Shown here in pieces: positions 32,674 to 52,547 of a DNA stretch of 64,000 nucleotides. Source of the DNA: Bradyrhizobium sp. NFR13 (lineage in GTDB: Bacteria > Pseudomonadota > Alphaproteobacteria > Rhizobiales > Xanthobacteraceae). Every line of letters begins with the position of its first letter. Position 1 is the first letter of the stretch. The translations under genes were made by a program, and so were the position numbers. The stretch lies in NCBI RefSeq assembly GCF_900114605.1, contig NZ_FOTP01000011.1:1-64000 (forward strand), read 5' to 3'. The notes below the pieces were generated by a model. It saw only the letters and a program-made list of their open reading frames with translations, did no database searches and was not told the origin of the DNA.

Positions 32674-32868
32674 CCTGACGCAGGCTTGAAGGCCGGCGCA
32701 TAGAAGTCTGAGGGGAATGCGTGACGCCCCACTATAGGCCGCACATGAAACTTTTGCGACAAAGCCAACCCGCAGCGGATTTGTGCACCGCAACTCGTCC
32801 GAGACCCGTCGACAACGTCTCGTGGAAGATGTGAAATCGCGTATCGCCGCTGGTATCGGATTGCAGAT

Positions 32869-33282
32869 GTGAAAGAAACGCCCGAACGCGATCGAGGCCT
32901 GCTCGGTCTGGTCGAACGACTCATGAAAAGGCCGGGTGACCCTGAACCGATCAGGCCAGAGCCTGACGCGGACACCAGAGACGGTTTCGGTCCGGTCGTC
33001 GCGGAGGAGAATCCAGCGGCATCGCTGGAGCCGCAACTTGCGGTCGAGAGCACCCGTACGCTTGACCGCTCGGAAATCGCGGATGTGATCCTGCGCGCGC
33101 TAAAGGGTATCGATGGCTGTCCGACAGCCGGCTTCGAGGTGGTTGTCTACGGTACGCGACCCTGGAACGCCATGTTACGCATCACACCGGCAGCAGGATC
33201 GGTTCCGGACGCACGCGCCTGGCGCCAGCGCGTCCAGGACATGGTTCAGCTTTTGCGGCATCAGTACGAGTTGCGCGAATAG
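32869..33282 (+). CDS. Hypothetical protein (137 aa)
   Basis: A soluble protein starting at a GTG. Residues 1-60 are polar and proline-rich, probably disordered; residues 65-137 look folded (LDRSEIADVILRALKGIDGCPTAGFEVVVYG ... WRQRVQDMVQLLRHQYELRE). It is divergent from the binding-protein gene. I recognise no family. Confidence 0.6.
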   Translation: MKETPERDRGLLGLVERLMKRPGDPEPIRPEPDADTRDGFGPVVAEENPAASLEPQLAVESTRTLDRSEIADVILRALKGIDGCPTAGFEVVVYGTRPWNAMLRITPAAGSVPDARAWRQRVQDMVQLLRHQYELRE

Positions 33283-35699: not shown

Positions 35700-36320
35700 T
35701 TATCCCTCGGCCGGAACCGTATCTCGGAGTGACGGCCGCTCCGACACGGTTGCGAACCACTCGGTCAGCGTCGGCCGCGAGCTGCGCCAGTCGAATGATG
35801 CGAAACGGAAATCCAGATAGCCGAGCGCGCAGGCGATGGTGAGGCTGCCGATGCTGATGCGGGCGCCGAACACGGCGACGTCGCTTTCCATCTGATCGAG
35901 CGCTGCAGCGATCTTGGTCATCTGACCATCGATCCAGTCCGACGATCGCTGTGCATCGCTGCGACAGGTGTTCTCGTAGCGTGCCAGGAGCGCAGCATCG
36001 AGCAGGCCGTCGCCAAGCGCCTGTTCGGTGAGAACCTGCCAACGCTCCACTCCGCGCAGAAACAGCGAACCGTGTCCAAGGTCGTCGAGATATTCGCAGA
36101 TCACCCGGCTGTCGAACAACAGCGTGCCATCCGCCAGCTTCGCCGCCGGCACCTTGGCGAGCGGGTTAAAGGCCGCGATCCGTTCATCGCGCTTCAGCGG
36201 ATGCGCGGCACTCGTCAGCTTGACGATGCGATCCGCCAATCCCAGTTCAATCGCGCAGGCCATGACCTTCCGCACATAGGGCGATGTCGGCGCATAGAAC
36301 AGTTCGATCCTGTCGCTCAT
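35700..36320 (-). CDS. Glutathione S-transferase family protein
   Basis: A 206-residue GST. The thioredoxin-like N-domain shows the active-site region APTSPYVRKVMACAIELG, the cis-proline motif NPLAKVPA and the glutathione-gamma-glutamyl site LLFDSRVICEYL; the helical C-domain follows from residue 90. It probably conjugates or isomerises electrophilic intermediates. Its start overlaps the stop of the GlcG-like gene (ATGA), placing it last in the argE-like/qor/glcG/gst operon. Confidence 0.88.
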   Translation of the reverse strand: MSDRIELFYAPTSPYVRKVMACAIELGLADRIVKLTSAAHPLKRDERIAAFNPLAKVPAAKLADGTLLFDSRVICEYLDDLGHGSLFLRGVERWQVLTEQALGDGLLDAALLARYENTCRSDAQRSSDWIDGQMTKIAAALDQMESDVAVFGARISIGSLTIACALGYLDFRFASFDWRSSRPTLTEWFATVSERPSLRDTVPAEG

Positions 36321-36742
36321 GGCTTCTGATCCTCAGCATCGATAGCCGCCAGCGCGGCGCGTGCGACTTCGACGTCCTGCGCGCCGGTGCCAGATCCCAC
36401 GCCGACGGCACCGACACATTGGCCGTCAATCATGATCGGCAATCCACCTTCGAGATTGGTCAGGCGGCCACCGCCTGCGATGGCCAGCTTGATCTCGTCG
36501 GCGGGATTGAGCCGCGAGGTCGGCTGCCGATGCGATGCGGCCGTGATGGCCTTGGACATCGATGTTTCCCGCGACAGCAATTTGGCCCCGTCCATTCGGA
36601 CATAGGCCATCAGGTTACCGCCGTCGTCGACGATGGTGATGTTCTGCGGCACGCCGAGCTCTTCTGCCTTGGCGACGGCACCCGCCAGTGCCTTGAGCGC
36701 ACCGGCATGAGTCAGTTTGAGGGAGGGCCTAGTTATCGCCAT
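36317..36742 (-). CDS. GlcG/HbpS-family heme-binding-like protein (cytosolic)
   Basis: A 141-residue GlcG/HbpS (DUF336) protein without signal peptide. Typical phrases are ITIVDDGGNLMAYVRMDGA, SMSKAITAASHRQPTS and GGLPIMIDGQCVGAVGVGSGTGAQD. The family is often found inside catabolic operons for glycolate or aromatic compounds, with roles that remain poorly defined (heme, corrinoid or ring binding). It is coupled to the GST gene by an ATGA overlap. Confidence 0.85.
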   Translation of the reverse strand: MAITRPSLKLTHAGALKALAGAVAKAEELGVPQNITIVDDGGNLMAYVRMDGAKLLSRETSMSKAITAASHRQPTSRLNPADEIKLAIAGGGRLTNLEGGLPIMIDGQCVGAVGVGSGTGAQDVEVARAALAAIDAEDQKP

Positions 36743-36790
36743 GGGGCTGCTCCAGTATCGACATGCGGGTTTTGCGGTTAACAGTGTTGC

Positions 36791-37801
36791 TCATGCGGCG
36801 GCGCCTGCCGGCAGCAACAGCACTTTGCCGATGTTTTCATTGGCTTCCAGAATGCGGTGAGCTTGCGCGGCATCCCCGAGCGGCAACTGGCGCCAGATCA
36901 GCGGCCTCACCTCGCCGGATGCGACCAGCGGCAGCACCTCGGCACGGAGCGCGGCAGCGATTGCGGTCTTCTCCTCGTCGGACTTCGGCCGCAGCGTCGA
37001 CGACGTCAGATACAATCCCTTCCGCATCACCAGTCCGAGATCGATCGGCACAGTGCCGCCTTCCATAAAGGACAGGCTGACATGGCGCCCGCCCGGCACG
37101 AGGGCATCGAGATTGCGCGCCACATAGGACCCACCGACGATGTCGAGCACGACATCGACGCCGCGCCCGTTTGTGGCGTCGCGCGCTGCGACAACGAAGT
37201 CGTCGGTACGATAGTTGATTGCGATGGCGCCGAGCGCTTCCACCGCCTTCTTCTTGGCTTCGCTGCCGACCGTGACTATCGGCGTCGCGCCGCGAGCGAT
37301 GGCCATGCGGATCGCAATGGTGCCGATGCCGCTGGCGCCGCCATGCACCAGCACGGTCTCACCCTTCGCCAGCCGACCACGCTCGAACAAATTGTGCCAG
37401 ACGGTGAACAGCGCTTCGGGCAATGCAGCCGCTTCGTCCATCGGCAAACCCTCTGGCACCGCGAGACAATGCGACGCCTTGGCGATGCAATAGCGCGCAT
37501 AACCGCCGCCCTTGACCAGGGCCATCACCGCCTGCCCCTGCAATGCCGCGTCACCGCCGACCACGCGGCCAGCGACTTCGAGACCGAGCACGTCAGTGAC
37601 ACCCGGCGGTAGCGGCACGGCCCCAGTTCGCTGCATCAGATCCGGCCGATTGACACCGGCTGCCGCAACCTCGATCAGCACTTCGCCTGGGCCAGGCACA
37701 GGGACCGGTCGTTCGACTAGCGTCAGAACGTCAGGACCGCCTACTTGCGTTGCGATGATGGCCTGCATTGTCGACATGATCGTCGACACTTCGTTCTTCA
37801 T
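36791..37801 (-). CDS. NAD(P)H-quinone oxidoreductase (PIG3-like, medium-chain reductase)
   Basis: About 336 residues of the zinc-free MDR family. N-domain: GEVLIEVAAAGVNRPDLMQRTG; nucleotide-binding HGGASGIGTIAIRMA; C-part VDVVLDIVGGSYVARNLDAL and the PIG3-like ending AQAHRILEANENIGKVLL. It reduces quinones or enones using NADPH. Start uncertain: the ATG at 37801 overlaps the ArgE-like stop (ATGA) and is chosen for coupling, but 37777 or 37768 match family N-termini better. Confidence 0.87.
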   Translation of the reverse strand: MKNEVSTIMSTMQAIIATQVGGPDVLTLVERPVPVPGPGEVLIEVAAAGVNRPDLMQRTGAVPLPPGVTDVLGLEVAGRVVGGDAALQGQAVMALVKGGGYARYCIAKASHCLAVPEGLPMDEAAALPEALFTVWHNLFERGRLAKGETVLVHGGASGIGTIAIRMAIARGATPIVTVGSEAKKKAVEALGAIAINYRTDDFVVAARDATNGRGVDVVLDIVGGSYVARNLDALVPGGRHVSLSFMEGGTVPIDLGLVMRKGLYLTSSTLRPKSDEEKTAIAAALRAEVLPLVASGEVRPLIWRQLPLGDAAQAHRILEANENIGKVLLLPAGAAA

Positions 37802-38976
37802 GATACGCGTATCCACTCTTCACTTGGCCGACGCAGCAAATCCGCCAGCCTGTCCATCATCGCGTTCGCAGCCGCGAGTTCGTCGAAGCCGATCCATTCA
37901 TCAGCCTTGTGACCGCGGGCCATGTCGCCGGGTCCGCAGACAAGCGTGGGAATGCCTGCTTGTGCGTAGAGGCCTGCCTCGGTGCCGAAAGCGACGGTCG
38001 TCGGCGGCTTCGTGTCGCTGGCGAGATGCGCGATCAATCGCGTTGCCGCGTCCTTCGCATTGGTGTCGAGACCGGGATAGGCCGACAGTTCCTCGGAGAC
38101 AATGTCAGCCTCCGGCTCATTGGCGCGCAGCCGATCGCGCTCGCGCACAACCACATCATCGACCCGCGCAAGAATCTCGCCGGCGTCACGGCCTGGCATG
38201 GTGCGGATCTCGTATTCCAGCACGGCATGTTCCGGCACCAGATTGACGGCGCTGCCGCCATGCAGCGAGCCGACATGGATGGTGGTGAACGGCGGATCGA
38301 AAGCGGAATCGCCACCGCGCGCGACTTCCTCATCCGCGAAGCCACGCAGCGCATGCGCGATCGCCACCGCGGCATCGACCGCATTGGCCGCGCGATGCGG
38401 CATTGCCGAGTGGCCGGTGCGCCCCGTCACTGTGAGGCGGCGCGCAATCTTGCCTTTATGCGCGCGCACGACGCGCATGGTTGTCGGTTCGCCGACGATG
38501 GCGAGCACCGGTGGCGCTACGGACTCCATGAGCGCCCGCACGAGATCGGGCGCACCGCGACATCCAACTTCCTCGTCATAGGAAAATGCCAGATGCACGG
38601 GCGCCGCAATGGCCGCCTCCTTCAAGCGCGGCACGTTCGCAAGGACGACGGCAAGAAAGCCCTTCATGTCGGTCGCACCACGGCCATAGACGCGCTGATC
38701 ACGAATGACGCCTGCGAAAGGCGGTACGGTCCAGGCCTGTCCCTCCACCGGCACGACGTCCGTATGCGCTGACAGGACAACACCCGGTCGATCCGACGGA
38801 CCGATCGTCGCGAGCAGCGAGGCCTTGCGGCCATCCGGCGACGGCACACGACGCGAGGACACGCCCGACGACGCAAGTATCCGCTCGATATATACAACGA
38901 TATCGAGATTCGAATTCGCACTTATACTTTCGATACTGATCAGATCGCAAAGTATTTGAGCTATTCTCGCGATCAT
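37798..38976 (-). CDS. ArgE-like M20 amidohydrolase (N-acyl amino acid deacylase)
   Basis: A 392-residue zinc peptidase of the M20/ArgE family, which removes acetyl or similar groups from N-acylated amines. Metal motifs: HTDVVPV, GRGATDMKGF, SYDEEVGCRG, GEPT and the C-terminal GHKADEW. TGRTGHSAMPHRAANA lies in the lid. True ArgE genes usually sit with arginine biosynthesis; this one heads an operon with a quinone reductase, GlcG and GST and is divergent from DUF1028, so its substrate is probably a catabolic N-acyl compound. Its first 30 codons are AT-rich with rare ATA codons and overlap a motif array. Confidence 0.88.
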   Translation of the reverse strand: MIARIAQILCDLISIESISANSNLDIVVYIERILASSGVSSRRVPSPDGRKASLLATIGPSDRPGVVLSAHTDVVPVEGQAWTVPPFAGVIRDQRVYGRGATDMKGFLAVVLANVPRLKEAAIAAPVHLAFSYDEEVGCRGAPDLVRALMESVAPPVLAIVGEPTTMRVVRAHKGKIARRLTVTGRTGHSAMPHRAANAVDAAVAIAHALRGFADEEVARGGDSAFDPPFTTIHVGSLHGGSAVNLVPEHAVLEYEIRTMPGRDAGEILARVDDVVVRERDRLRANEPEADIVSEELSAYPGLDTNAKDAATRLIAHLASDTKPPTTVAFGTEAGLYAQAGIPTLVCGPGDMARGHKADEWIGFDELAAANAMMDRLADLLRRPSEEWIRVS

Positions 38977-38992
38977 CTATACTACCAATACT
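38924..38992. promoter_or_regulatory. ATACT motif array between the ArgE-like and DUF1028 genes
   Basis: Five ATACT units fall within 69 bp: forward at 38924-38928, 38933-38937, 38979-38983 and 38988-38992, inverted at 38951-38955. Two are part of a larger inverted repeat, AAAGTATT (38949-38956) and AATACTTT (38987-38994). The true gap between the divergent starts is only 39 bp, so promoters must reach into the ArgE-like coding region. A regulator-binding array is the simplest reading. Confidence 0.45.
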
Positions 38993-39015
38993 TTTACGAT
39001 TGCAGGAGCATCACG

Positions 39016-39669
39016 ATGACCTATTCCATCTCGGCACGTTGTCCGGAGACCGGCGCGTTCGGCATTGCCATTACGTCGTCCAGCATTGCCGTGCCGGCGC
39101 GCTGCGCCTGGGTGGGACCGCTCGGCCTCGTGGTGTCGCAGAACGTCACTGACCCCGCACTCGGCCCGACCGGTCTCGCGCTGCTGCGTCAGGGCCTCGG
39201 CGCGGGTGCGGTCCTCAACAATCTCACACTCGGCACGCCGCAGCCGGCATGGCGGCAGGTCGGCGTGATCGACCGCTACGGTCAGGTCGCCTGGCACTCC
39301 GGCGCGCAGGCCTTGCCGATTGTCGGCATTGCGCAAGGCGCCGGCTGTCTTGCGCTCGGCAATCTGCTGGTCGATGAGAAAGTCCCGAGCGTGATGGTCG
39401 CGCGGTTCGAAGCGACCGCCGGGCAACCGCTTGCGGAGCGGCTGATGTCGGCGCTGGAAGCCGGCCTCGATGCCGGCGGCGAGACCGACGACGAACATGC
39501 AGCGGGCCTGCATGTCGCCCACATGTTCGACTGGCCGGTGGTCGATCTGCGGGTCGACTGGCACGAGGCGCCGATCGGTGAACTCCGCGCACTGTGGGAG
39601 CGCTACCGACCGCAGCAGAAGGACTATGTCGCGCGCGCGATGAATCCGGGTGCCGCGCCGTCTTTCTAG
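39016..39669 (+). CDS. DUF1028 family protein (putative Ntn-hydrolase)
   Basis: A 217-residue DUF1028 protein, an Ntn-hydrolase-like superfamily whose nucleophile should be the residue after the initiator Met, here Thr2 (MTYSISARCPETGAFGIAI). Further family phrases: VVSQNVTDPALGPTGLALL, QVGVIDRYGQVAWHSG and CLALGNLLVDEKV. The ATG at 39016 follows AGGAG. It converges on the ABC ATPase with only 11 bp between. Activity of the family is not established; amide hydrolysis is the usual guess, and the neighbouring M20 deacylase fits that. Confidence 0.87.
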   Translation: MTYSISARCPETGAFGIAITSSSIAVPARCAWVGPLGLVVSQNVTDPALGPTGLALLRQGLGAGAVLNNLTLGTPQPAWRQVGVIDRYGQVAWHSGAQALPIVGIAQGAGCLALGNLLVDEKVPSVMVARFEATAGQPLAERLMSALEAGLDAGGETDDEHAAGLHVAHMFDWPVVDLRVDWHEAPIGELRALWERYRPQQKDYVARAMNPGAAPSF

Positions 39670-39680
39670 AGACGCACCGC

Positions 39681-40829
39681 TCACGGCGCCTCGCCTGGCG
39701 GAAACGCCACGATGTCGTCGGAGCCGATGGTCAATCCGATCTCGGCTCCGACCGGACAAGACGACAGCGCCGCAATACCCGGCGAACGTAGCAGAATCCG
39801 CTCACGCGCACTGCCGGGCGCGTCGATATAGAGATCGACATGGCCGCCTTGAAACACCTGCGCCGTCACGGTGCCCGGCAGCGATCCAGAAGCGCCGCGC
39901 GGTGTGACGGCGAGATGCTCCGGCCGCACGAAGACATCCACGGCATCACCGATCGCCACTCCGGCAGTGGGCGTTGCAGGAACATTGACACTCATGTCGC
40001 CAATAGAGACCACCGCGACATCGCCGCGCCGCGCAACCAGCCTTCCGTTGAGGACACTGGCGTCACCCACGAAGGACGCGACGAAGCGATCGGCTGGACG
40101 GCGATAGATATCGTCCGGCGCTGCAATCTGGCGGATGCGACCGGCCGACATCACAGCGATACGATCGGACATGGACAATGCCTCACCCTGATCATGGGTG
40201 ACAAAGATCGTGGTGACGCCGAGTTCGCGCTGGATCTGCTTGAGCTCGACCTGCATCGAACCGCGAAGATTCTTGTCCAGCGCCGAGAACGGCTCGTCCA
40301 GCAGCAGCACCTTCGGCTTGATCACCAGCGCCCGTGCCAGCGCGACGCGCTGCTGCTGACCACCGGATAACTGCCGCGGCTTGCGGTCGGCGAAGCCGGA
40401 CAGCTTGACCAGCGCCAACGCTTCCTCGACGCGACGTGCAATCTCCTTCTTTTCCACGCCGCGGGTCGTAAGGCCGTAAGCGACGTTTTTCGCGACGCTC
40501 ATATGCGGGAACAGTGCGTAGTTCTGAAACACGATACCGATCTCGCGCATATGCGCGGGCGTCTCGGTCACCAGAGCGCCTTCGATGAAAATCTCGCCAT
40601 TGTCGGCTTCGAGGAAGCCGGCAATGAGATTAAGCAGCGTTGTCTTCCCACAGCCGGACGGCCCCAGCAGGGTCATGAACTCGCTCGGCCGGATCTTCAG
40701 CCACGCCTCATGCAACGCGACGGAATCGCCGAAACGTTTGGTCACGCCATCGAGCTGGACCGCCGGGCGGATCTTGTCGCTCGCCACGGAGGGCATGTCG
40801 GCTGTCATCGGATCAGTGCGCATCAACAT
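39681..40829 (-). CDS. ABC transporter ATP-binding protein (PotA-like)
   Basis: About 382 residues; polyamine/opine-type importer ATPase with Walker A GPSGCGKTT, signature LSGGQQQRVALARALV, Walker B VLLLDEPFSALDK, THDQGEALSMSDR and a C-terminal TOBE domain (DVFVRPEHLAV). Its start overlaps the permease by 17 bp; alternatives at 40823, 40808 and 40796 exist. Last gene of the binding protein-permease-permease-ATPase operon serving the catabolic cluster. Confidence 0.9.
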   Translation of the reverse strand: MLMRTDPMTADMPSVASDKIRPAVQLDGVTKRFGDSVALHEAWLKIRPSEFMTLLGPSGCGKTTLLNLIAGFLEADNGEIFIEGALVTETPAHMREIGIVFQNYALFPHMSVAKNVAYGLTTRGVEKKEIARRVEEALALVKLSGFADRKPRQLSGGQQQRVALARALVIKPKVLLLDEPFSALDKNLRGSMQVELKQIQRELGVTTIFVTHDQGEALSMSDRIAVMSAGRIRQIAAPDDIYRRPADRFVASFVGDASVLNGRLVARRGDVAVVSIGDMSVNVPATPTAGVAIGDAVDVFVRPEHLAVTPRGASGSLPGTVTAQVFQGGHVDLYIDAPGSARERILLRSPGIAALSSCPVGAEIGLTIGSDDIVAFPPGEAP

Positions 40830-41628
40830 TCAGGATTTTCCCGAGGCCCAGGAAGGAATTTGCAATCGTGAGCAAGGTTGCCGTCACGACGATGTAGATG
40901 ACCGACAGCGCGGCCAGCGTGGGATCCGCAAATTCGCGGACGTAATTATACATGGCGACCGGCAGCGTCTGCGTCGCCTGACTGCTGACAAACAACGTCG
41001 CCGTGAACTCGTTGAAGGACAGGATCGCGGCAAACAGCCAGCCGCTCAGCAGGCCCGGAATCAGCAGCGGGATCGTCACCGTGAACAAAATTCGCAACGG
41101 TGTGGCACCGAGACTGGAGGCCGCCAGTTCAAGCCGCGTATCGAGATTTTCCAGCGAGATGTAGGTGCTGCGCATCACGAAAGGCAGCACCATCACCACA
41201 TGGGCGAAGATGACGAGCGGAAAACCGCGTCCGATCCCCGTCTGCGAGGCGAGAATGAGAATGCCGAGACCGACAGTGTAATGCGGGATGATCAGCGGCG
41301 ACAGCAGAATGCCTTCGAGAAAATCCCTGAGCGCAAATTTGTAACGATGAATGGCGAAAGCGAAAGCCGAGCCTACGACCACCGCGATGCTGGATGCCCA
41401 GACCGTCACGGTCAGGCCATTCCAAAACCCCTTGGCAAAGTCGGCATAGGAGAAAGCGCGCCAGAACCAGCGCAGCGACCAGGACTGCGGCGGAAATTGC
41501 AGGATCGCACGGTCGTTGAAAGCCGAGATCGCCACGACGACGCCGGGCAACAGCACGAACAGGAGGATGACGGCGACGAGGACGCGGCCGGACCAGCGCA
41601 GCGCGAGAGTTGCAGGTGAGCGCTTCAT
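40813..41628 (-). CDS. ABC transporter permease (PotC-like)
   Basis: A 271-residue inner-membrane protein with six helices; EAA loop LELAASSLGATPLRILFTVTIPLLIPGL. Starts in a 4-bp ATGA overlap with the upstream permease. The phrase LSPLIIPHYTVGLGILILASQ is typical of PotC relatives. Pairs with the gene upstream to form the pore. Confidence 0.9.
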   Translation of the reverse strand: MKRSPATLALRWSGRVLVAVILLFVLLPGVVVAISAFNDRAILQFPPQSWSLRWFWRAFSYADFAKGFWNGLTVTVWASSIAVVVGSAFAFAIHRYKFALRDFLEGILLSPLIIPHYTVGLGILILASQTGIGRGFPLVIFAHVVMVLPFVMRSTYISLENLDTRLELAASSLGATPLRILFTVTIPLLIPGLLSGWLFAAILSFNEFTATLFVSSQATQTLPVAMYNYVREFADPTLAALSVIYIVVTATLLTIANSFLGLGKILNVDAH

Positions 41629-42479
41629 GTCGTGCCCGCCATGCGTTCGAGCGGGCTCGCGGCCTTTTTCAGCAGCGCGATCACAGCCAAGGACAAAGCG
41701 AGGCCGATGATGGACAGGCTGGCGGCGAAGGGGAAATTGAATGACGAGAAACCGAGTTGATAGATCAGCGTCGAGACAGTTGCGACACGGCCGCCGCCGA
41801 TCAGTTGCGGTGTCGCGAACGCACTGAAGGTCCAGGCGAAAGCGGTGGAGAAGCCGGCCACGATGCCCGGCATCGACAGCGGCAGCGTGATGGTCAGGAA
41901 AATCCGGATCGGGCCGGCACCGAGGCTCTCGGCGGCCTTCTCGTAATTGCGGTCGATATGCGACAGCGCCGCGGCTAGCATGATGACCATGATCGGCATC
42001 GTCACATGCACCAGCGCCGCAACCACGCCGCCGGCGGTAAACATCATCTGCAGCGGACGATCCAGCAGACCGAGCTTGAGCAACAGCGAATTCAGGAACC
42101 CGTTATTGCCGAGCACGATCATCCAGGAATAGGTCCGCACCACTTCGCCAAGAAACAGCGGCGTCACAGACACGATCAGGATGAAGGACCGCAGCGCCGA
42201 ACTGTTGGTGCGCGTCAGCGCATAGGCCAATGGATAAGCGAGCAGCAAGGTGAAGAGCGCCGTCTCGAAGCACAGGAGCACCGTGTTCCAGAAGGCCAGC
42301 GCATAGAGCGGACGCAGCATGGCCTCGAAATTCGCCCATGTGAATCCGCCGACTTCGAGCGTACCGGGAATATAGGCCCGCACGCTGTACTGAAACACAG
42401 CCAGCATCGCCGCGATCAGCCCCACAGCGACGAGGCCGGCCGGCGAAACGAACCATCCCAGAAATGGACGTGTGTTCAT
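41625..42479 (-). CDS. ABC transporter permease (PotB-like)
   Basis: A 284-residue inner-membrane protein with six helices; EAA loop EKAAESLGAGPIRIFLTITLPLSMPGIVAG. TPLFLGEVVRTYSWMIVLGNNGFLN is a PotB-type signature. It follows the binding-protein gene after a 76-bp gap that holds a long hairpin. Confidence 0.9.
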   Translation of the reverse strand: MNTRPFLGWFVSPAGLVAVGLIAAMLAVFQYSVRAYIPGTLEVGGFTWANFEAMLRPLYALAFWNTVLLCFETALFTLLLAYPLAYALTRTNSSALRSFILIVSVTPLFLGEVVRTYSWMIVLGNNGFLNSLLLKLGLLDRPLQMMFTAGGVVAALVHVTMPIMVIMLAAALSHIDRNYEKAAESLGAGPIRIFLTITLPLSMPGIVAGFSTAFAWTFSAFATPQLIGGGRVATVSTLIYQLGFSSFNFPFAASLSIIGLALSLAVIALLKKAASPLERMAGTT

Positions 42480-42510
42480 GGATAAACTCGACGTCGTAAG
42501 CTCAAGACGA

Positions 42511-42549
42511 TGGATCGCGATCCGGCGGTAGCGACCGGATCGCGATCCA
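42511..42549 (-). terminator. Long intercistronic hairpin after the binding-protein gene
   Basis: A 15-bp perfect stem, TGGATCGCGATCCGG / CCGGATCGCGATCCA (42511-42525, 42535-42549), with a 9-base loop. No U tract follows. It lies six bases past the binding-protein stop and likely protects that message, giving more binding protein than permease. Confidence 0.65.
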
Positions 42550-42555
42550 GACTAT

Positions 42556-43593
42556 TTACGGAGCCATGATGTTCTCGGTGAACCACTTGCGCCAGGTGCC
42601 GGTCTTCTCGGCACGCAGCTTGGCGTCGATCACCAGCGTCTGCTTCGCCCACTGATCCGCGGTCGTGAAGACACCCGGCAATGCTGCGATCTCCGGCTTG
42701 ACCTTGGCGTTATCGACAACCGGACTGCCCTTCTTCAGCTCGGCGATCTTCGCCTGCACGTCCGGATCGAGCGCGGTGTTGATGAACTTGTAGGCCAGCT
42801 CCGCCTTGGTCGAGCCCTTGGTGATGCCCATAGTGTCGACGCCGAGCACGGCGCCTTCCTTCGGAATCGCCAGCTTGATCGGCACGCCCTGGTTCTGCAT
42901 GTAATAGGCATTCATCGACAGAACGACCTGCACCGGGGTTTCACCCGTCGCGAACAGCTGCTGGCTGTTGGCGTCGTTAGTGTAGAACGCCTTGTAGTTC
43001 GGCTTCAGCGCCTTCATCTTGGCTTCGCCGACTTCCCAGTTCGACGCATCGCCGCCAGAGAGCTTGGCCGCAACGACCATCACATGGCTCGGATCGAAAT
43101 CGGGCGACGAGATCATGCCCTTGAGCGCGGGATTCCACAGGCCTTCCCAGCTCTCGAAGCTCACGCCCTTGGGCAACTGATCGGGCAGATAGCCGATGGT
43201 GTAGACATAGGCCCAGGCGCCGATGTGATACGGGCTGATCTTGGCCTGCTCGACCAGATGGCTCGCATTCGGGATCTTCGCCATGTCGAGCTTCTCGAAC
43301 AGATTGTCGTTAGCATAGAGCCAACCGACATGGGCCGTCGTGAAGGTGACATCGCTCTCGGGCTTGGCAGCCGCGAGCTTGGCTTGGTTGAGACGGTCGA
43401 TGGTGCCGCCGGTGATGTATTCAACCTTCACGCCGGTCTCGGCAGTGAACTTCTTGGCGATCGCTTCATCGATCAGATCGCGGAAACTTCCACCCCAGGT
43501 GCTGACCACCAGCTTCTCCTGGGCGGATGCCTGCCCGCCGATCGCGAGCGTCGACAGCAACATCAATGCAGTAAACTTCAAGGCGCGCTTCAT
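42556..43593 (-). CDS. ABC transporter periplasmic solute-binding protein (PotD-like)
   Basis: A 345-residue family 1 binding protein with signal peptide (MKRALKFTALMLLSTLAIGGQASAQ). Mature start EKLVVSTWGGSFRDLIDEA is characteristic of spermidine/putrescine- and opine-type binding proteins. Other landmarks: GVKVEYITGGTIDRLNQAK, YVYTIGYLPDQLP, SMNAYYMQNQGVPIKLAIPKEG. First gene of its ABC operon, next to the RidA-monooxygenase genes on the same strand, so it probably imports their substrate. Ligand unknown. Confidence 0.87.
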   Translation of the reverse strand: MKRALKFTALMLLSTLAIGGQASAQEKLVVSTWGGSFRDLIDEAIAKKFTAETGVKVEYITGGTIDRLNQAKLAAAKPESDVTFTTAHVGWLYANDNLFEKLDMAKIPNASHLVEQAKISPYHIGAWAYVYTIGYLPDQLPKGVSFESWEGLWNPALKGMISSPDFDPSHVMVVAAKLSGGDASNWEVGEAKMKALKPNYKAFYTNDANSQQLFATGETPVQVVLSMNAYYMQNQGVPIKLAIPKEGAVLGVDTMGITKGSTKAELAYKFINTALDPDVQAKIAELKKGSPVVDNAKVKPEIAALPGVFTTADQWAKQTLVIDAKLRAEKTGTWRKWFTENIMAP

Positions 43594-43768
43594 CTCGAAT
43601 CCTCACAAGAATTATGACCCAGAAAGAAAAGCAAACATCGTGCCAGGCGATTGATAAATCTCAAGAATTTCCGCCTGACGGGCGCGTGCAACCACGCTCA
43701 TCGATCATGCGAAAGATGAAGCCGCAAACGTCCGATTGATCTCTGTAGTGCCGGCGAAAGACGCGTCG

Positions 43769-44179
43769 TTACGCCGGAATTTCCGCGATGATGTCGATTT
43801 CCATCAGGTATTCAGGCTTGGCGAGGCCCTGCACGATAATCCCCGTCGAAACCGGATAGACGCCCTTCAGCCATTTGCCGACAACGCGATAGACCGGCTC
43901 GCGATAGGCGCGATCGGTGATGTAGATGACGATCTTCACCACGTCCTCGAGCTTGGAGCCTGCCTCTTCAAGCAGCACCTTGGCGCATGTCATGGCATTC
44001 TCGGTCTGCGCAGCGGCATCGCCGATGCCGACAATCTTGCCGTCGAGATCCATGGCCGTCTGGCCGCGCACATAAACGGTGTTGTTGGCGCGAACGACCA
44101 TGCAGACATCGTTGTCGAGTGACTGTTCGGGATACGCATCCTTGGTGTTGAACTTGCGAAAACGCTGATGGGTGGTCAT
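43769..44179 (-). CDS. Rid-family protein lacking the catalytic arginine
   Basis: A 136-residue YjgF/YER057c/UK114 (Rid) protein. The fold is clear: TVYVRGQTAMDLDGKIVGIG, QTENAMTCAKVLLEEAGSKLEDVVKIVIYITD and a C-terminal strand LMEIDIIAEIPA. RidA deaminases have Arg in the FPARS position (R105 in E. coli); here it reads YPVST, with Ser111. The general Glu near the end is kept. It should therefore bind but may not deaminate imines in the RidA way. It lies 11 bp after the flavin reductase. Confidence 0.87.
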   Translation of the reverse strand: MTTHQRFRKFNTKDAYPEQSLDNDVCMVVRANNTVYVRGQTAMDLDGKIVGIGDAAAQTENAMTCAKVLLEEAGSKLEDVVKIVIYITDRAYREPVYRVVGKWLKGVYPVSTGIIVQGLAKPEYLMEIDIIAEIPA

Positions 44180-44190
44180 GAAGCAGATCC

Positions 44191-44694
44191 TCAGGCGGCG
44201 AGACGGCGGAATGTGCGATCGGAAAAGATCAGGGGCTGCGCAGCTTGGTTGCGAACGTTCAGCACCTCACCTGCGACGATGCGATGCGAGCCGAAATCGA
44301 ACACGCTGGCGACGCGGCAATCGAAATTGCACAGCGCGCCATCGAGCGCAGGCGCGCCGGTGAGCAGTTCTGACCAGTCACCGGCGAGAAAGCGATTGTC
44401 GCGCAGCTCAGGGATCAGTCCCGCAAAGCTGCTGGCGACACGCTCCTGCGCGTCGGACAGCACATTGGCGACGAACACGCCATTGGCGAGCAGCTTTTCG
44501 AGCCCGCGATTGTCGCGGTGAACGCTGAACACCACCGATGGCGGCTCCATCGATAGTGAGCACAGCGACGATACCGTGACGCCTGCACGCCCCGCTTCGC
44601 CATCCGTCGTCACCACCGCCACGCCCGAGGCCGTCATCCGCATGGCGTCGCGGAAGATATCGACCTCGACCAGAGGATGCGCCGATGCGCTCAC
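44191..44694 (-). CDS. Flavin reductase, small subunit of a two-component monooxygenase
   Basis: A 167-residue HpaC/RutF-type flavin:NAD(P)H reductase: MTASGVAVVTTDGEAGRAGVTVSSLCSLSMEPPSVVFSV is the family core, followed by FVANVLSDAQERVASSFAG and FDFGSHRIVAGEVLNVR. It makes free reduced flavin for the adjacent HpaB-type oxygenase. It starts with GTG inside the oxygenase stop codon (GTGA), with GGAG 7 bases upstream, so the two subunits are coupled. Confidence 0.92.
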   Translation of the reverse strand: MSASAHPLVEVDIFRDAMRMTASGVAVVTTDGEAGRAGVTVSSLCSLSMEPPSVVFSVHRDNRGLEKLLANGVFVANVLSDAQERVASSFAGLIPELRDNRFLAGDWSELLTGAPALDGALCNFDCRVASVFDFGSHRIVAGEVLNVRNQAAQPLIFSDRTFRRLAA

Positions 44695-46151
44695 GACTTC
44701 GCTCCGTCGATACGATCGGACAGACCTGCCGACTTCTTCACGAAGTCCAGCGGCCCGGCGAAATCGAAGCTGTTATAGACGGCCGCGAGATGATTGAAGT
44801 GCGGCGCCTGCGCAAACTGCACGAAGGTCAAACGATGACCTGCGTAGTCGGAATTCAGGAGGTCGCGCGCGAAAGCAAGCAGCTTGCGGCGATCATCGGC
44901 CTGCCACTGATCGTTCAGCGAATAGAACTTGTTCAGCCACTTTCCGCTGCCTTCAGCCTCGAACGCGTCAGCATTCGGCGTAATGCAGATCTGGCCGCCG
45001 CAGAGTTCCCGGGCGATATGCATCATTGCCGGAAGCTGCGAACAGGCGAACACGCGGCCGGCATAGAGCATCGACTGCTGCGGCATCAGAAGGCCGCCGG
45101 GGCTCTTCTCCGCCATGGCGATGGAGGCCGTGAGATGCGCGTTGATGCCTTCGCGGTAGCAGACGAGATCGGCCAGCTTCTCGCGCACCGACTGCAGCTT
45201 GTCGAGACCGGTCTGCTTGGCGTTCCACATGGCCGCACCGATCATCATGTCGGCGGTGTAGAGCAGACGCAGTACATAAGGGAATGCCGAATAGCGATGC
45301 AGCGTCGAACGCACGAACTGTGCAGCGCGGGTATGGCGATAGAAGAACACGTCTTCCCACGGGATCAGCACGTCGTCGAACACCACCAGCGCCTCGACCT
45401 CATCGAAGCGATTGGCGAGCGGATAATCCTTGGCGTTGGCGCTGCTGCGATTGGCGAAGCCACCGCGGCAGATGTGTTTCACGCCCGGCGCGCCCATCTT
45501 GACGATGCAGCCGACCGCGTAATCAGAGAGCTTCTCGTTGGCCCAGGCGCCGACGGTCGGCTTCAGATAGGCCTGATCGGCATAGGCCGCGGCGGTCTCA
45601 TATTTCGCGCCACGAATGATGATGCCGGCATCGGTCTCACGCGTGACGTGAACCATGAGATCCGGATCCTGCTGCTGCGGCGGCAGCGAGCGATCGCCCT
45701 TCGGATCGGTGTTGGCGGAGACGTGGAAGATGTCTTTCTCGATCACGGCACGGATGTGATGATCGATATTGGCGGCAAAGCGTGGATCGATCTCCGCCAG
45801 TACATCGCGGCCGTCGGTCAGCGACCACATCTCGCCGATGGTCTCGTCACCAACACGGGTAACGACGCCGCCAATGTCCTTCATCACGTGATCGACGGCC
45901 TTGATCTTGTCGTGCCAGTCCTTCTGCTCCGTCGGCGGCTTGTAGAAGACCGAATGTGTCTCGTTGTCTTCAACGTAAGTGAGGTCAGCGGCGTAACGCT
46001 CTTCACGCGCCATGTCATACATACGGGCCTTGACGTCGATGATCGGCTTCAGCGCCGGGTGCGTGGTCACGTCCTTGACGCGCTCGCCATCGATCCAGAC
46101 CTCGCGACCATCGCGAATGCCCTGTTTGTATTCTTCACCCGTGCGGATCAT
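44691..46151 (-). CDS. HpaB-family flavin-dependent monooxygenase, oxygenase subunit
   Basis: A 486-residue protein of the 4-hydroxyphenylacetate 3-hydroxylase family, which uses free FADH2 and O2 to hydroxylate a phenol-like ring. Signs: N-terminal RTGEEYKQGIRDGREVWIDGERVKDVTTHPA, then TDPKGDRSLPP, DPDLMVHVTRETDAGIIIRGAK and FDDVLIPWEDVFFYR. It lacks the Cys/His set of 4-hydroxybutyryl-CoA dehydratases, the other branch of the family. The operon with reductase and Rid recalls the Rut pyrimidine pathway, but the oxygenase is of a different family. Substrate unknown. Confidence 0.88.
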   Translation of the reverse strand: MIRTGEEYKQGIRDGREVWIDGERVKDVTTHPALKPIIDVKARMYDMAREERYAADLTYVEDNETHSVFYKPPTEQKDWHDKIKAVDHVMKDIGGVVTRVGDETIGEMWSLTDGRDVLAEIDPRFAANIDHHIRAVIEKDIFHVSANTDPKGDRSLPPQQQDPDLMVHVTRETDAGIIIRGAKYETAAAYADQAYLKPTVGAWANEKLSDYAVGCIVKMGAPGVKHICRGGFANRSSANAKDYPLANRFDEVEALVVFDDVLIPWEDVFFYRHTRAAQFVRSTLHRYSAFPYVLRLLYTADMMIGAAMWNAKQTGLDKLQSVREKLADLVCYREGINAHLTASIAMAEKSPGGLLMPQQSMLYAGRVFACSQLPAMMHIARELCGGQICITPNADAFEAEGSGKWLNKFYSLNDQWQADDRRKLLAFARDLLNSDYAGHRLTFVQFAQAPHFNHLAAVYNSFDFAGPLDFVKKSAGLSDRIDGAKS

Positions 46152-46197
46152 TGATCGGCTCCTGTTCGACTGGACGACAGGGTGCCGAAGGGCCTAT

Positions 46198-46218
46198 CAT
46201 AAGGAAAATATTTTTATG
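46198..46218. promoter_or_regulatory. LysR-type regulator box
   Basis: CATAA (46198-46202), 11 bases, then TTATG (46214-46218) make a perfect inverted repeat of the T-N11-A class. It lies in the 91-bp gap between the divergent HpaB-type and LysR genes, 25 bases from the LysR start. Confidence 0.65.
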
Positions 46219-46242
46219 TTTGGAGATGCATAGGAAAACACG

Positions 46243-47190
46243 ATGAGGTTCTCGCTCCGGGCCCTGCGTTATGTGGTTGAGACGGCAGATGCGGGCAGCG
46301 TGACGGAAGCCGCCAAGCGCCTGAACGTATCGCAGCCCTCGATTTCGGCCGCCCTCAGCCAGCTGGAGGCTGAACTCGGCGTCCAGATCTTCATTCGCCA
46401 TCTCGCCAAGGGCGTGACCCTCTCCCCCGCCGGCCAGCGGCTGGTAAACGACGCGAGACTGCTGCTCGCGCATGCGCGCGATTTTGCCCAGAGCGCCCAG
46501 TCGCTTGGCAGCACGCTGCACGGCGAGATCGTGGTCGGCAGCTTCTCGACGCTCGCCACGCGCTTCATGCCGGGACTGCTGTCCGGCTTTCGCGAGCGCC
46601 AGCCGGGCATCTCGGTGAAGCTGGAGGAAGGCGACCAGCAGGAAATCATCGACGGTCTGGTCTCCGGACGGACCGAACTCGCGCTCTCCTACTCCTTCGC
46701 TGTTCCCGACGAGATCGTCGGTGAGAAATTCTGCGAGCTGCCGCCCTATATCGTGCTGTCGGCAGATCACCCTCTGGCAAACCGGGCATCGATCAGCCTG
46801 ACCGAAATGCGCGACGAACCATTCATCCTGCTGGATCTGCCGCATTCGCGCGACTATTTCGCCAGCCTGTTTACGGCATCCGGCATCGAGCCGCGCATTT
46901 CCTTCCGGACCCGGTCATTCGAGCTGATCCGCGGACTGATCGGAAATGGCCAAGGATACTCGATCCACAATGCCGTGCCGCGCACCACCATCGGCTATGA
47001 CGGCAGTCGCGTCGCCGTGGTGCCGATCACCGAAAAATTGCCGGCAACGCATGTCATGGCGCTGCGTCTGAAGCGCCACGCGTTACGACCGGCGGTACAG
47101 ACATTCGCCGATTTCGCGCGCGACGCCTTTGCCGTTGGCGGCCAGTTCGCGCCGGGCTCAATAGCCCCGGCGCGGATCGACGCGGCTTAG
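46243..47190 (+). CDS. LysR-family transcriptional regulator
   Basis: A 315-residue LTTR. The winged helix-turn-helix is at residues 15-45 (SVTEAAKRLNVSQPSISAAL), followed by the linker helix and an effector-binding domain (HGEIVVGSFSTLATRFMPGLL; FCELPPYIVLSADHPLA). It is divergent from the monooxygenase operon and presumably activates it when the pathway substrate or product binds. Its last 33 bp overlap the convergent hydroxyacid dehydrogenase gene. AGGAAA precedes the ATG. Confidence 0.92.
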   Translation: MRFSLRALRYVVETADAGSVTEAAKRLNVSQPSISAALSQLEAELGVQIFIRHLAKGVTLSPAGQRLVNDARLLLAHARDFAQSAQSLGSTLHGEIVVGSFSTLATRFMPGLLSGFRERQPGISVKLEEGDQQEIIDGLVSGRTELALSYSFAVPDEIVGEKFCELPPYIVLSADHPLANRASISLTEMRDEPFILLDLPHSRDYFASLFTASGIEPRISFRTRSFELIRGLIGNGQGYSIHNAVPRTTIGYDGSRVAVVPITEKLPATHVMALRLKRHALRPAVQTFADFARDAFAVGGQFAPGSIAPARIDAA

Positions 47191-48087
47191 CAGTTCCTGG
47201 CCGGCGCGCAGCCGGCGCACATTCTCGCCGATCTGTTGCGCAGCCGACCCCGGTAGCGCGACCGATGCCAAATGCGGCGTGATCAGCACATTGTCCCTCG
47301 CCCAGAGCGGACTCTCGGGCGACAGTGGTTCGGAGGCAAACACGTCCAGCGTGGCCTCCGCGATATGCCCGGAGCGCAGCGCCGCGATCAAAGCCGGCTC
47401 ATCGACGATGCTGCCGCGAGAAACATTGATGAAGACCGCACCGCGCTTCGTCAGCGCCAGGCGCTCGGCATTCAGCAGCCCGCCTGTTTGCGGGGTCTGG
47501 GGCAACATGCAGACAATAATGTCGCTATCGCCCAGGATATCCGGCAAGGCGGACAGACCGGCAGAGGTCTCGATTCCCTCCACCGACTTCAGCGTGTTGG
47601 ACCAGCCGCGCACGCGATAACCTTGCCGGGCGCATTCGAGCGCCGCGGTCAGTCCGAGTTCGCCAAGACCCAGAATGCCGACGGTGATGGTCTCGGGATC
47701 GCGCGGGTGAATATAGTGCCAGCGGCGTTCGCGCTGGGCGCGCTCGAAGGCCGGAATGTCGCGTGCGTGCCGTGTCACCGCGAACAACACATAGCCAGCC
47801 ATCATCCGCGCCATCTTCGGATCGGACAGGCGCGTGATCGGAACCTCCGGCAAGTCGTCACGCCCGACCAGCGCATCGACACCGGCGCCGAGATTAACGA
47901 CGAGGCCAAGATTTGGATAGCGCGCAAAGAAACCATGCGGCGGCTTCCAGACAAGCGCCTGCCGTACACGGGTCGGATCGGTGATATCATCTGCCTGCCG
48001 CAGATCGATCCCCTCCACGGCCAGCGCCGCGCGCCACGTCTCGAAGTCATCGAAGGCACTGTGGAACGCCATCACCTCCGACGTCAT
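47158..48087 (-). CDS. D-2-hydroxyacid dehydrogenase (GhrA-like)
   Basis: A 309-residue NAD(P)-dependent dehydrogenase of the glyoxylate/hydroxypyruvate reductase A type. Rossmann motif GILGLGELGLTAA, then CMLPQTPQTGGLLNAERLA, NVSRGSIVDEPALIAAL (catalytic Arg), LDVFASEPL (Glu) and LITPHLASVA (His). It reduces 2-oxoacids such as glyoxylate or hydroxypyruvate. It overlaps the AroQ-like gene upstream by 4 bp, so the pair is coupled; in this setting it may handle a 2-oxoacid released by ring or chain cleavage. Confidence 0.9.
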   Translation of the reverse strand: MTSEVMAFHSAFDDFETWRAALAVEGIDLRQADDITDPTRVRQALVWKPPHGFFARYPNLGLVVNLGAGVDALVGRDDLPEVPITRLSDPKMARMMAGYVLFAVTRHARDIPAFERAQRERRWHYIHPRDPETITVGILGLGELGLTAALECARQGYRVRGWSNTLKSVEGIETSAGLSALPDILGDSDIIVCMLPQTPQTGGLLNAERLALTKRGAVFINVSRGSIVDEPALIAALRSGHIAEATLDVFASEPLSPESPLWARDNVLITPHLASVALPGSAAQQIGENVRRLRAGQELLSRVDPRRGY

Positions 48088-48539
48088 TGCGCGGCCTTTT
48101 CGGCGATCAGACGCGACACCGCTGTCAGCGCCAGTTCGTAGCCGAGCGCGCCGAGCCCGGCGATCACGCCGGTCGCCGCGCGTGACACATAGGAGTGATG
48201 GCGGAACGGCTCGCGCTTCCAGATATTGCTCATATGCGCCTCGATGATCGGGCCCTCGAAAGCGAGCAACGCATCGAGGATGGGGACCGACGAGTAAGTG
48301 AGACCGGCTGCATTGATGACAATCCCCCCGGCATTCTCCCGCGCCTCCTGAATCCAGTCGACCAGAACGCCTTCATGATTGGACTGGCGGAAGTCGATCG
48401 TCAGGCCGAGCGAAGCCGCGTGGTCTTCACAGCGCTTCTTGATCGAGACGAAACTTTCGCGGCCATAGGTGCCGCTTTTGTCCAGCCCATAAAGATTGGC
48501 GTTGGGACCATTGAGAAAATAGACAACTGGAGACGTCAT
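48084..48539 (-). CDS. AroQ-like protein (type II dehydroquinase fold) with altered active site
   Basis: A 151-residue protein plainly of the type II 3-dehydroquinase family: YFLNGPNANLYG, RQSNHEGVLVDWI, GGIVINAAGLTYSSVPILDAL, AHMSNIWKREPFRHHSY and ATGVIAGLGALGYELAL. Yet the lid loop reads LDKSGTYG where GTREPxxYG is normal, so the catalytic Arg is Asp20. The His of THTS is Tyr82. Tyr25, Asn76 and His102 are kept. It therefore probably catalyses something other than dehydroquinate dehydration. No shikimate genes are near; it is coupled to a hydroxyacid dehydrogenase. Confidence 0.85.
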   Translation of the reverse strand: MTSPVVYFLNGPNANLYGLDKSGTYGRESFVSIKKRCEDHAASLGLTIDFRQSNHEGVLVDWIQEARENAGGIVINAAGLTYSSVPILDALLAFEGPIIEAHMSNIWKREPFRHHSYVSRAATGVIAGLGALGYELALTAVSRLIAEKAAQ

Positions 48540-49403
48540 GGCCGCGCTTTCATGTGTCTGGAGAGCAATCGGGTATTCTCGAGAGGCAAGACCGGACCGG
48601 GAGAAAATACCAACGAACAAGCGAAGTCGGATGATCCCGGATGCTCAACCTTTCGCCAACAGGGCGCATGCAGCTCCGCATCGACGCAGCGCATCCGCAA
48701 ATTGAACCTTAGAGAGACCTGCTTCATTGCAGAAATCAAAAGAACCTATGCGGTTCGACGGATTTCAGTATGGTTCAGGGGTTGCTGTTGCCGCAGGCGG
48801 AAGCCCGGAGGCCGTGCAGTCCGTCGCCCGGTAAAAAATGAGCGAGGCGACCAATCGAAAGAAACCGGCCGGAAAAGTCGGTCCGGGCTACATGCGGTGC
48901 ACGGTCGGCATCCGGCTAGTGCATTGGTGCGTGTTTCAAGGAATCCCTGATTTCACGCCAGATGTTCACACACCAGGTTCTCGCTCTGTGGGTCAACACG
49001 TTTCTCAAGCTTCACTCTCGCTACCGCTCTATCTCCTTAGAGTGGCGAGCAAGAGTTGTGCCAACAACAATACTAAGAGAGCGGTGGCAGGTGTAAACTA
49101 ACGTGACAGCCCGCCTCCACCAGTGGCCCGCGTTTCTATTAGTCGTCCAGCATGCCGCGGTACTGAGCGGCACTGTTCGAATTATAGCTGCTTTGCCTTT
49201 TCGATCACGCTGGTCATCCAACTGCGCGAGGGTGGATCGCCGTTGCCACCGCTGTAAGCGGCCCCCCGGCTTTGCGCAGGTTGCCTCGGCGATCTGCAAG
49301 CATCTGACAGATCGACTGTATTTTAACCTATTCAATCTACAGTTGACCAAAGACTCGTCAGAAGTTGAGTAGTTCGGCGCGACGCCGCCAGACGGAACAA
49401 GAC
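48540..49403. other. 864-bp gap without a convincing gene
   Basis: GC is lower here than in flanking genes. Frames of 60-110 codons exist on both strands but lack ribosome sites and recognisable domains. It should hold the promoters of the AroQ-like operon and of the chemotaxis gene. A short inverted repeat, CCGCTCT / AGAGCGG, lies at about 49023-49085. I see no RNA gene or repeat family. Confidence 0.4.
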
Positions 49404-51845: not shown

Positions 51846-52547
51846 TTACTCGACCTTGGGCCCCGACTTGCCGTCAGGCGTAACGTCGATGGACATGGCC
51901 CGTCCGGTCACCTTCGGCACCGGGCGGCAATCCTTCATGCATGGATTCTTGTTCCAGAACTGCTTCTCGGACGTCTCGCGATCGTCTTCGAAAAATGCCG
52001 CAGCGTTCGGCATCTTGATGGACGTGAAGTTCTTCTCGTTGAGTTCGAATTTCTCGTCCTTGACGATGTCGTTCATGCTCAGGATGTAAGCCGTCAGCGC
52101 ATAGATTTCGTCATTGGTCAGCGACTGCGCATTGCCATAGGGCATCGCGCGCTTGATGTAGTCGAACACGGTGGAGAGATCAGGCCAGAACGAACCGACG
52201 GTCTTGTCCGGCCGGTCTGCCTTCAATGTCCCGGCGCCGCCGGCCAGCACCGGCCAGCGGCCGACGCCCTGTCCGAATTCGCCGTGACAGGACGCGCACT
52301 TCTCCTGAAACAGATCGTCGCCCTGCTTCACAGTGCCCTTGCCGACCGGAAGACCGCGCCCGTCCGGCCGCACATCGGTGTCCCAGGCCGCGATTTCCTC
52401 AGCGGTGGCCGCCCGGCCGAGCCCGAGCTTCGCGGAGGGCTTGGTGACGTCGCGGCCCGCCATCTGCTGGGCAGCGCTTGGCCCAGTCATGCCGCCGAGC
52501 AGACATGCCGCCAGCACCAGTGTCAGGGCGTTAGCCGATTTCGACAT
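51846..52547 (-). CDS. soxD: SoxD, c-type cytochrome subunit of sulfane dehydrogenase
   Basis: A 233-residue periplasmic cytochrome with signal peptide (to about residue 27) and one heme site CASCH (Cys84, Cys87, His88). Sequence TKPSAKLGLGRAATAEEIAAWDTDVRPDGRGLP is typical of SoxD N-termini. It takes electrons from SoxC during oxidation of SoxY-bound sulfane sulfur. This is the single-heme form; Paracoccus SoxD has two. Its start overlaps soxC by 17 bp. Confidence 0.92.
   Translation of the reverse strand: MSKSANALTLVLAACLLGGMTGPSAAQQMAGRDVTKPSAKLGLGRAATAEEIAAWDTDVRPDGRGLPVGKGTVKQGDDLFQEKCASCHGEFGQGVGRWPVLAGGAGTLKADRPDKTVGSFWPDLSTVFDYIKRAMPYGNAQSLTNDEIYALTAYILSMNDIVKDEKFELNEKNFTSIKMPNAAAFFEDDRETSEKQFWNKNPCMKDCRPVPKVTGRAMSIDVTPDGKSGPKVE

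Follow-up and report, generated by a model that had tools for sequence, protein, structure and literature searches.

An HpaB-type oxygenase cluster of Bradyrhizobium sp. NFR13 that probably serves the degradation of an imidazole-type carboxylic compound

Which compound is taken up and degraded by a gene cluster that unites an HpaB-type monooxygenase, a flavin reductase, a Rid protein, a DUF1028 protein, and an ABC importer? The question is raised by positions 35,700 to 48,539 of a 64,000-nucleotide stretch of Bradyrhizobium sp. NFR13 DNA (hereafter the window; contig NZ_FOTP01000011.1 of assembly GCF_900114605.1, positions 1 to 64,000). A preliminary description, made from the letters of the window, had seen here a catabolic region for an N-acylated aromatic or heteroaromatic compound. 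Strong Pfam or NCBIfam matches confirm all genes named in it, except that the two permeases are recognized by position and conserved order (Table 1). From our comparison, the locus probably serves to import an imidazole-type carboxylic compound and to degrade it by chemistry like that of the hin pathway of Pseudomonas, with HpaB and its reductase presumably standing in for the single-component FAD monooxygenase of the HinF type (FMO).

Conservation of the gene set

Using the window HpaB, 80 loci were fetched (one genome per species; the best 80 of 219 confirmed), on which the window proteins were placed by tblastn at E ≤ 1e-8 with at least half of the query covered and identity thresholds for eight families. 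Linkage was counted in full-length loci (at least 21 kb), which excludes 24 of the 80 and leaves 45 window-type loci and 11 others with a more distant HpaB; window-type membership was set by locus number (L005-L061, L066), consistent with the order in the HpaB tree. The AroQ-like gene and LysR each occur in 43 of the 45 window-type loci, followed by GhrA (42), Rid (40), the solute-binding protein (SBP), ABC permease and ATPase (39 each), DUF1028 (38), flavin reductase (36), GlcG (30), M20 (23), GST (22), HutD (11), and the quinone/enone reductase QOR (10). These counts are not independent events, because many of the species belong to shared genera (Ancylobacter, Bradyrhizobium, Xanthobacter). 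Histamine dehydrogenase, aldehyde dehydrogenase, FMO (at least 50% identity), and aspartase are found in none of the 45. The proposal of a linked catabolic region thus survives the gene-neighbourhood comparison, the linkage being conserved in many proteobacteria. The 11 other loci hold Rid (9), LysR (9), DUF1028 (8), M20 (7), and the reductase (6), together with histamine dehydrogenase (4), aldehyde dehydrogenase (3), aspartase (2), a Rieske oxygenase (2), and FMO (1); the AroQ-like and GhrA genes occur in none of them. HutD is present in 12 of all 80 loci.

Two controls delimit this association. This genome encodes two more HpaB proteins (26-27% identical), one of them accompanied by a 32% identical flavin reductase; within about 9 kb of their genes, neither Rid, DUF1028, M20, AroQ, nor GhrA was found. 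For the reverse control, started from DUF1028, 240 genomes of the class were searched, 58 of them gave a match, and 20 closer and 20 more distant matches were hand-picked down the list. The closer loci hold an HpaB of the clade in 7 cases, a HinF-like FMO in 2, Rid in 11, and Rid together with M20 in 2; HpaB, FMO, Rid, and the Rid-M20 pair are all missing from the 20 distant ones.

Single window-type loci carry extra genes (TctC, TauD in two loci, a mandelate-racemase-like gene, DctP, a PHB esterase), and ten extra open reading frames (ORFs) that were scanned in such loci, four of them without a match, gave no clue to the substrate. A Rieske ring-hydroxylating oxygenase adjoins Rid, mostly with DUF1028 next, in L067, L068, L076, L077, L078, L079, and L084; that of L067 is nearest to the glycine betaine monooxygenase GbcA, below the cut-off, and perhaps these enzymes are N-demethylases for methylated imidazoles.

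The hin pathway and the exchange of the oxygenase

According to two papers (PMC6467879, PMC8231116), the hinFLHG products of Pseudomonas convert imidazole-4-acetate to aspartate: HinF is a FAD monooxygenase (EC 1.14.13.5), HinL an enamine deaminase, HinH an amidase, and HinG an amidase (EC 3.5.1.8), with PA5390 (hinG) listed as a probable peptidic bond hydrolase. HinI is an aspartase, encoded in a separate hinI cluster in P. putida, and HinK is a LysR protein responsive to imidazole-4-acetate (same papers). The order LysR / FMO-Rid-DUF1028-M20 in plasmids of Mycolicibacterium arabiense and Caballeronia grimmiae matches the HinF-L-H-G order as it is given there. The set of oxygenase, Rid, DUF1028, and M20 with a LysR gene, by which we recognized a hin operon, is present both in the window and in FMO loci. 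It also meets histamine genes directly: FMO, Rid, DUF1028, aldehyde dehydrogenase, histamine dehydrogenase, and M20 are grouped in Pseudosulfitobacter, and in Parasedimentitalea FMO and HpaB stand together with the Rid/DUF1028/M20/histamine dehydrogenase set. The Pseudohalocynthiibacter locus (HpaB 54%) has in addition aspartase and electron transfer flavoprotein; its dehydrogenase and that of Parasedimentitalea match the solved histamine dehydrogenase 6de6 with 1265 and 1253 bits, respectively.

With the pathway of P. putida U and P. aeruginosa the window has an oxygenase, Rid, and LysR in common and, by position, the DUF1028 hydrolase and the M20-type amidase. It differs in having HpaB and a flavin reductase instead of a HinF-type FMO, its own ABC importer, and extra AroQ-like, GhrA, QOR, GST, and GlcG genes, while its cluster shows neither enzymes leading from histamine to imidazole acetate nor an aspartase; DUF1028 and M20 are moreover separated from HpaB, reductase, and Rid, unlike the hin order. 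A HinF-type FMO was not found in this genome, the best match reaching 31% over 194 residues. The earlier remark that no pathway with this gene set had been described therefore holds in part: the core of oxygenase, Rid, DUF1028, and M20 fits the hin genes by order and names, whereas for the HpaB version and for the AroQ/GhrA/QOR/GST module no description was found among the matches listed (open-access titles and beginnings of abstracts). The term DUF1028 had no match in the open-access literature search.

The exchange of HpaB and FMO is seen twice, in Rhodococcus histamine clusters and in the window-type operon. Four Rhodococcus loci (L071, L072, L080, L083) pack histamine dehydrogenase, flavin reductase, HpaB, Rid, DUF1028, and M20 into about 13 kb; three of them also carry aldehyde dehydrogenase, and one carries aspartase. 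The L071 dehydrogenase, the one compared, reaches 1034 bits against histamine dehydrogenase 3k30. In the four genomes, full-length FMO homologues are just 42-43% identical, and partial ones 45-47% over about 190 residues, whereas the cluster FMOs compared have at least 57% identity among themselves. In an FMO search of 12 genomes or records, 8 gave a match at 1e-20, of which two were close (64% and the query itself). Conversely, on four of four plasmids (Klebsiella, Rhizobium bangladeshense, Pantoea, Roseivivax) the stretch read holds the window-type operon with FMO instead of HpaB, including AroQ-like, GhrA, SBP, permeases, ATPase, QOR, GST, Rid, DUF1028, and M20 genes; the window SBP is 65.6% identical to its Klebsiella plasmid counterparts.

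A 12-kb Klebsiella segment with this operon is held to at least 80% by 117 of 72,556 plasmid records, and 103 of the 200 records with any match are from Klebsiella; among 5,426 E. coli genomes, two show some match and none reaches 80%. In the Klebsiella plasmid MN268580 (84361-96432) the FMO operon is flanked by a VapBC pair and a mobile element, with a transposase on the other side. On these clinical plasmids it has the character of a nutrient-use operon, for which a search gave no description of its role.

Both oxygenase families divide by context. The FMOs form two groups, with 57-64% identity between and 63-81% and 67-89% within them, ranges that just touch; the HpaBs form two groups, marked by PTVGAW or PTIANW close to the active site. 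L049 is among the exceptions, as is Aminobacter MSH1, whose second-type HpaB stands with the full AroQ set and aspartase. At 99-100% identity, the window HpaB matches the copies in two loci from T. robiniae and one from Tardiphaga sp., which points to a Tardiphaga-like genome; it is 67-68% identical to the HpaB of the Rhodococcus histamine clusters, with R99, E103, and S145 in common. These residues, conserved in 95 of the 97 rows of an alignment in which the window counts twice, occupy the positions of R100, Y104, and H142 of Thermus HpaB, which we take to be the phenol-binding Arg/Tyr/His; the Arg is kept, and Tyr and His are replaced. In NCBIfam the protein falls far short of both HpaB equivalog cut-offs (209.8 vs 480.2 and 154 vs 885.2), and its reductase matches RutF best, below cut-off (127.4 vs 254.75), and is also below that of HpaC. 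On cut-offs and residues together a standard 4-hydroxyphenylacetate hydroxylase was rejected, an identity that would have counted against the preliminary description: the family and the separate flavin reductase are those of the HpaBC 4-hydroxyphenylacetate 3-monooxygenase, whereas the site residues and scores differ and the cluster genes include no ring-cleavage dioxygenase. FAD synthetase-like genes occur near the HpaB genes of Bacillus badius (L088, 15487-16059) and Aminobacter (L085, 12529-13503), which fits a high FAD demand.

Several observations weigh against a hin-like role. HinF, HinL, HinH, and HinG are equated with FMO, Rid, DUF1028, and M20 through gene order and names, not sequence, and the known hin pathway has no place for AroQ, GhrA, QOR, and GST. 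M20 was not found in 22, the reductase in 9, and DUF1028 in 7 of the 45 window-type loci; 11 of the 20 closer DUF1028 loci have neither oxygenase, several of the 20 ending at contig ends. A Shinella locus shows histamine dehydrogenase with Rid-DUF1028-M20 and neither oxygenase within 20 kb, and an Ideonella histamine dehydrogenase locus neither Rid nor DUF1028. Both HpaB types occur in one locus in Bradyrhizobium (L013-L015) and Halotalea (L038), and HpaB and FMO together in four loci (L069, L078, L090, L093), which is not as simple replacement predicts. The M20 protein passes the acetylornithine deacetylase (ArgE) model TIGR01892 (379.1, cut-off 297.7); since the M20 of the Caballeronia FMO locus passes too (420.7), this model cannot tell ArgE from the cluster enzyme. 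The chlorophenol monooxygenase 3hwc likewise lacks the Tyr/His pair in the same alignment, so that loss of the pair is not decisive, and a chlorophenol monooxygenase is opposed by context and low similarity only. Finally, no close histamine dehydrogenase is found in this genome (best 30%), and an aspartate end point is unsupported because aspartase is missing from all 45 window-type loci. Direct use of histamine by the strain was rejected on the first of these grounds; histamine aminotransferase was not searched for.

Candidate reactions and substrates

In the pathway that we favour, the SBP and ABC genes would take up the substrate, and HpaB, supplied with FADH2 by the flavin reductase, would hydroxylate the imidazole ring to an imidazolone, standing in with its reductase for the HinF-type enzyme. 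The predicted structure of the DUF1028 protein has an N-terminal nucleophile (Ntn) fold in which Thr2, at the N-terminus as such a nucleophile should be, superposes on Thr1 of the proteasome; the protein thus models as a Thr-nucleophile Ntn hydrolase, and we propose that it is an imidazolone (cyclic amide) hydrolase that would open the ring to an N-formimino amino acid. Rid could then hydrolyse the C=N bond, or aid tautomers, to give an N-formyl amino acid and ammonia. These two steps are assigned from the protein families, and could be shared. M20 would remove formate, most likely acting last as an N-formyl-amino-acid deformylase, since in loci with the gene order of hinF-L-H-G it neighbours Rid and DUF1028. 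A HinK-like LysR would sense the pathway acid, and the AroQ-like, GhrA, QOR, GST, and GlcG proteins may form a second module for the side chain or product. In outline this agrees with the preliminary description, which was right, in our judgement, in proposing that the compound is imported and probably heteroaromatic, that HpaB with its reductase hydroxylates it, and that Rid acts on a C=N product. Its M20 step, removal of an N-acyl group before oxidation, is not supported: the position beside Rid and DUF1028 suggests the last step, and nothing found points to an N-acyl aromatic compound.

The second module bears on the identity of the substrate. In 54 of 54 cluster members of the AroQ-like family (one further mis-extracted row was set aside) the REP-loop Arg is replaced (Asp in 49, Thr in 2, and Gln, Glu, or Ser) and an active-site His is Tyr; both are presumably catalytic residues of type II 3-dehydroquinate dehydratase (DHQase). 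With that enzyme the window protein shares the family and the functional Tyr, Asn, second His, and Glu motifs, and it differs in the two replacements; a true DHQase or quinate route was therefore rejected. A class-wide search gave matches besides the window at 48-61% identity, and those fetched look like housekeeping enzymes without new context, because 29 of 29, all from other genomes of the class, keep the REP-loop Arg. Two further AroQ genes lie in this genome, one of which has the Arg but not the His. With two DHQase residues lost and the module missing from the plain histamine clusters, imidazole acetate is probably not the substrate.

Imidazole-4-acetate itself, acquired externally and converted to aspartate with AroQ, GhrA, QOR, and GST in detoxifying or accessory roles, overlaps as a special case with the hin-like pathway and is possible though rather unlikely. 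The HpaB identity and shared residues with the Rhodococcus clusters speak for it, as does the complete set with aspartase in Aminobacter MSH1; the window LysR, too, is nearest to 3fzv and 6m5f, which we take to be HinK of P. aeruginosa. Against it stand the split of both oxygenase families by context, in which window-type HpaB and AroQ-type FMO each group apart, and the distribution of AroQ/GhrA (0 of 11 other loci) and aspartase (0 of 45 window-type loci).

Another N-heteroaromatic compound (pyrrole, oxazole, pyrimidine), oxidized on the ring and likewise ending as an N-acyl amino acid, appears unlikely. Its attraction is the Rut-like layout of oxygenase, flavin reductase, and Rid, the last two having RutF and RutC as their best NCBIfam matches; both remain below cut-off (RutC 56.5 vs 169.1), and the linkage of HutD and histamine dehydrogenase indicates imidazoles. 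The Rut uracil pathway itself was rejected on these two cut-offs. RutA is a luciferase-type enzyme, so that the window differs in its oxygenase as well, and other rut genes were not seen in the cluster.

More doubtful still is a separate, undescribed pathway of the AroQ-type operon whose substrate would be a 2-hydroxy or 2-oxo acid with an imidazole ring (imidazole-lactate or -pyruvate), the HpaB and FMO folds having been exchanged as imidazole hydroxylases independently in the two operon types. Here the 2-oxo acid might be made by GhrA (and, in some loci, by an FMN alpha-hydroxyacid oxidase), and the opening and stripping of the ring might fall to HpaB or FMO together with DUF1028, Rid, and M20. 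The AroQ-like protein, a dehydratase fold put to new use, might eliminate the amine beta to the new ketone, and GST might isomerize and QOR reduce the double bond to yield 2-oxoglutarate, with GlcG left over. Lactate, glycolate, and mandelate oxidases are equally good matches for the alpha-hydroxyacid oxidase of the Klebsiella locus. The scheme of the preliminary description, in which an N-acyl aromatic amine is taken up and deacylated by M20, HpaB hydroxylates its ring, and Rid clears the reactive imine, is very improbable: the gene families fit generally, most solved HpaB relatives are named for phenols and 3hwc shares the loss of the Tyr/His pair, but in several loci Rid, DUF1028, and M20 occur as a set with histamine dehydrogenase, and HutD is linked in 12 of 80.

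If the imidazole pathway that we favour is correct, a branch of DUF1028 would gain a function as Thr Ntn hydrolases for imidazolones, imidazole hydroxylation would join the activities of the HpaB family, and a relative of AroQ would seem to have left shikimate metabolism. It would also explain a catabolic operon of rhizobia and, in its FMO form, of about 100 Klebsiella plasmid records.

Organization of the locus and its surroundings

The gene set given earlier stands, with DUF1028 now corrected to the forward strand. Five strand blocks follow one another: AroQ-like and GhrA (-); LysR (+); HpaB-reductase-Rid with SBP-permease-permease-ATPase (-); DUF1028 (+), which runs towards the ATPase gene and diverges from the M20 gene across a gap of 39 bp; and M20-QOR-GlcG-GST (-). 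These strand changes imply at least five transcription units. A scan for promoters and terminators gave chance level. A full-length ORF antisense to HpaB (44685-46154, +) probably just shadows a GC-rich gene.

Table 1. Features of the cluster in window coordinates
Feature	Position	Strand	Basis
AroQ-like protein without REP-loop Arg and one active-site His	48084..48539	-	Pfam DHquinase_II 2.9e-48; residue comparison
GhrA-like D-2-hydroxyacid dehydrogenase	47158..48087	-	Pfam 2-Hacid_dh_C 5.8e-49
LysR regulator, divergent	46243..47190	+	Nearest solved structures 3fzv, 6m5f; 235 bits vs 94 for next
Operator-like palindrome CATNGG-N5-CCTATG at LysR start	46229..46245		Post hoc motif, suggestive only
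HpaB-family FADH2-dependent monooxygenase	44691..46151	-	Pfam HpaB_N 1.4e-84, HpaB 2.8e-53
Flavin reductase, presumed HpaB partner	44191..44694	-	Pfam Flavin_Reduct 3.6e-38; 4-bp overlap with HpaB
Rid protein, positional counterpart of HinL	43769..44179	-	Pfam Ribonuc_L-PSP 4.2e-22; no PDB sequence match at 1e-12
Periplasmic SBP, PotD/PhnS-like	42556..43593	-	Pfam SBP_bac_8 5.5e-26
ABC permease 1	41625..42479	-	ORF, position, conserved order
ABC permease 2	40813..41628	-	ORF, position, conserved order
ABC ATPase, PotA-like	39681..40829	-	Pfam ABC_tran 2.1e-37, TOBE_2
DUF1028 protein, modelled Ntn hydrolase, positional counterpart of HinH	39016..39669	+	Pfam DUF1028 8.5e-60
M20 deacylase, ArgE type, positional counterpart of HinG	37798..38976	-	Pfam Peptidase_M20 1.1e-30; PRK07522 460 bits, cut-off 412
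PIG3-family NAD(P)H quinone/enone reductase (QOR)	36791..37816	-	TIGR02824 410 bits, cut-off 297
GlcG/HbpS-like protein	36317..36742	-	Pfam HbpS-like 1.7e-32
GST-family protein	35700..36320	-	Pfam GST_N_2 7.8e-16, GST_C_2 6.4e-11

The palindrome at the LysR start recurs with at least 9 of 12 positions in 50 of 76 LysR upstream regions, compared with about 9% of plain shuffles, although it was picked after viewing the sequences, many of which are closely related; over the whole window its frequency is near chance (20 found, 13.25 expected).

Next to the cluster, the gene at 49365-51371 (+) encodes a methyl-accepting chemotaxis protein whose sensor domain is dCache_3; it recurs in just 2 of the 80 fetched loci, both from Tardiphaga, and therefore is probably outside the system. 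About 3 kb from the cluster on its other side lies a second ABC importer (28945-33036, -) with an SBP_bac_6 binding protein, a permease, and an ATPase, and at 52531-53808 (-) the window encodes a sulfite-oxidase-type molybdopterin protein with Oxidored_molyb and Mo-co_dimer domains.

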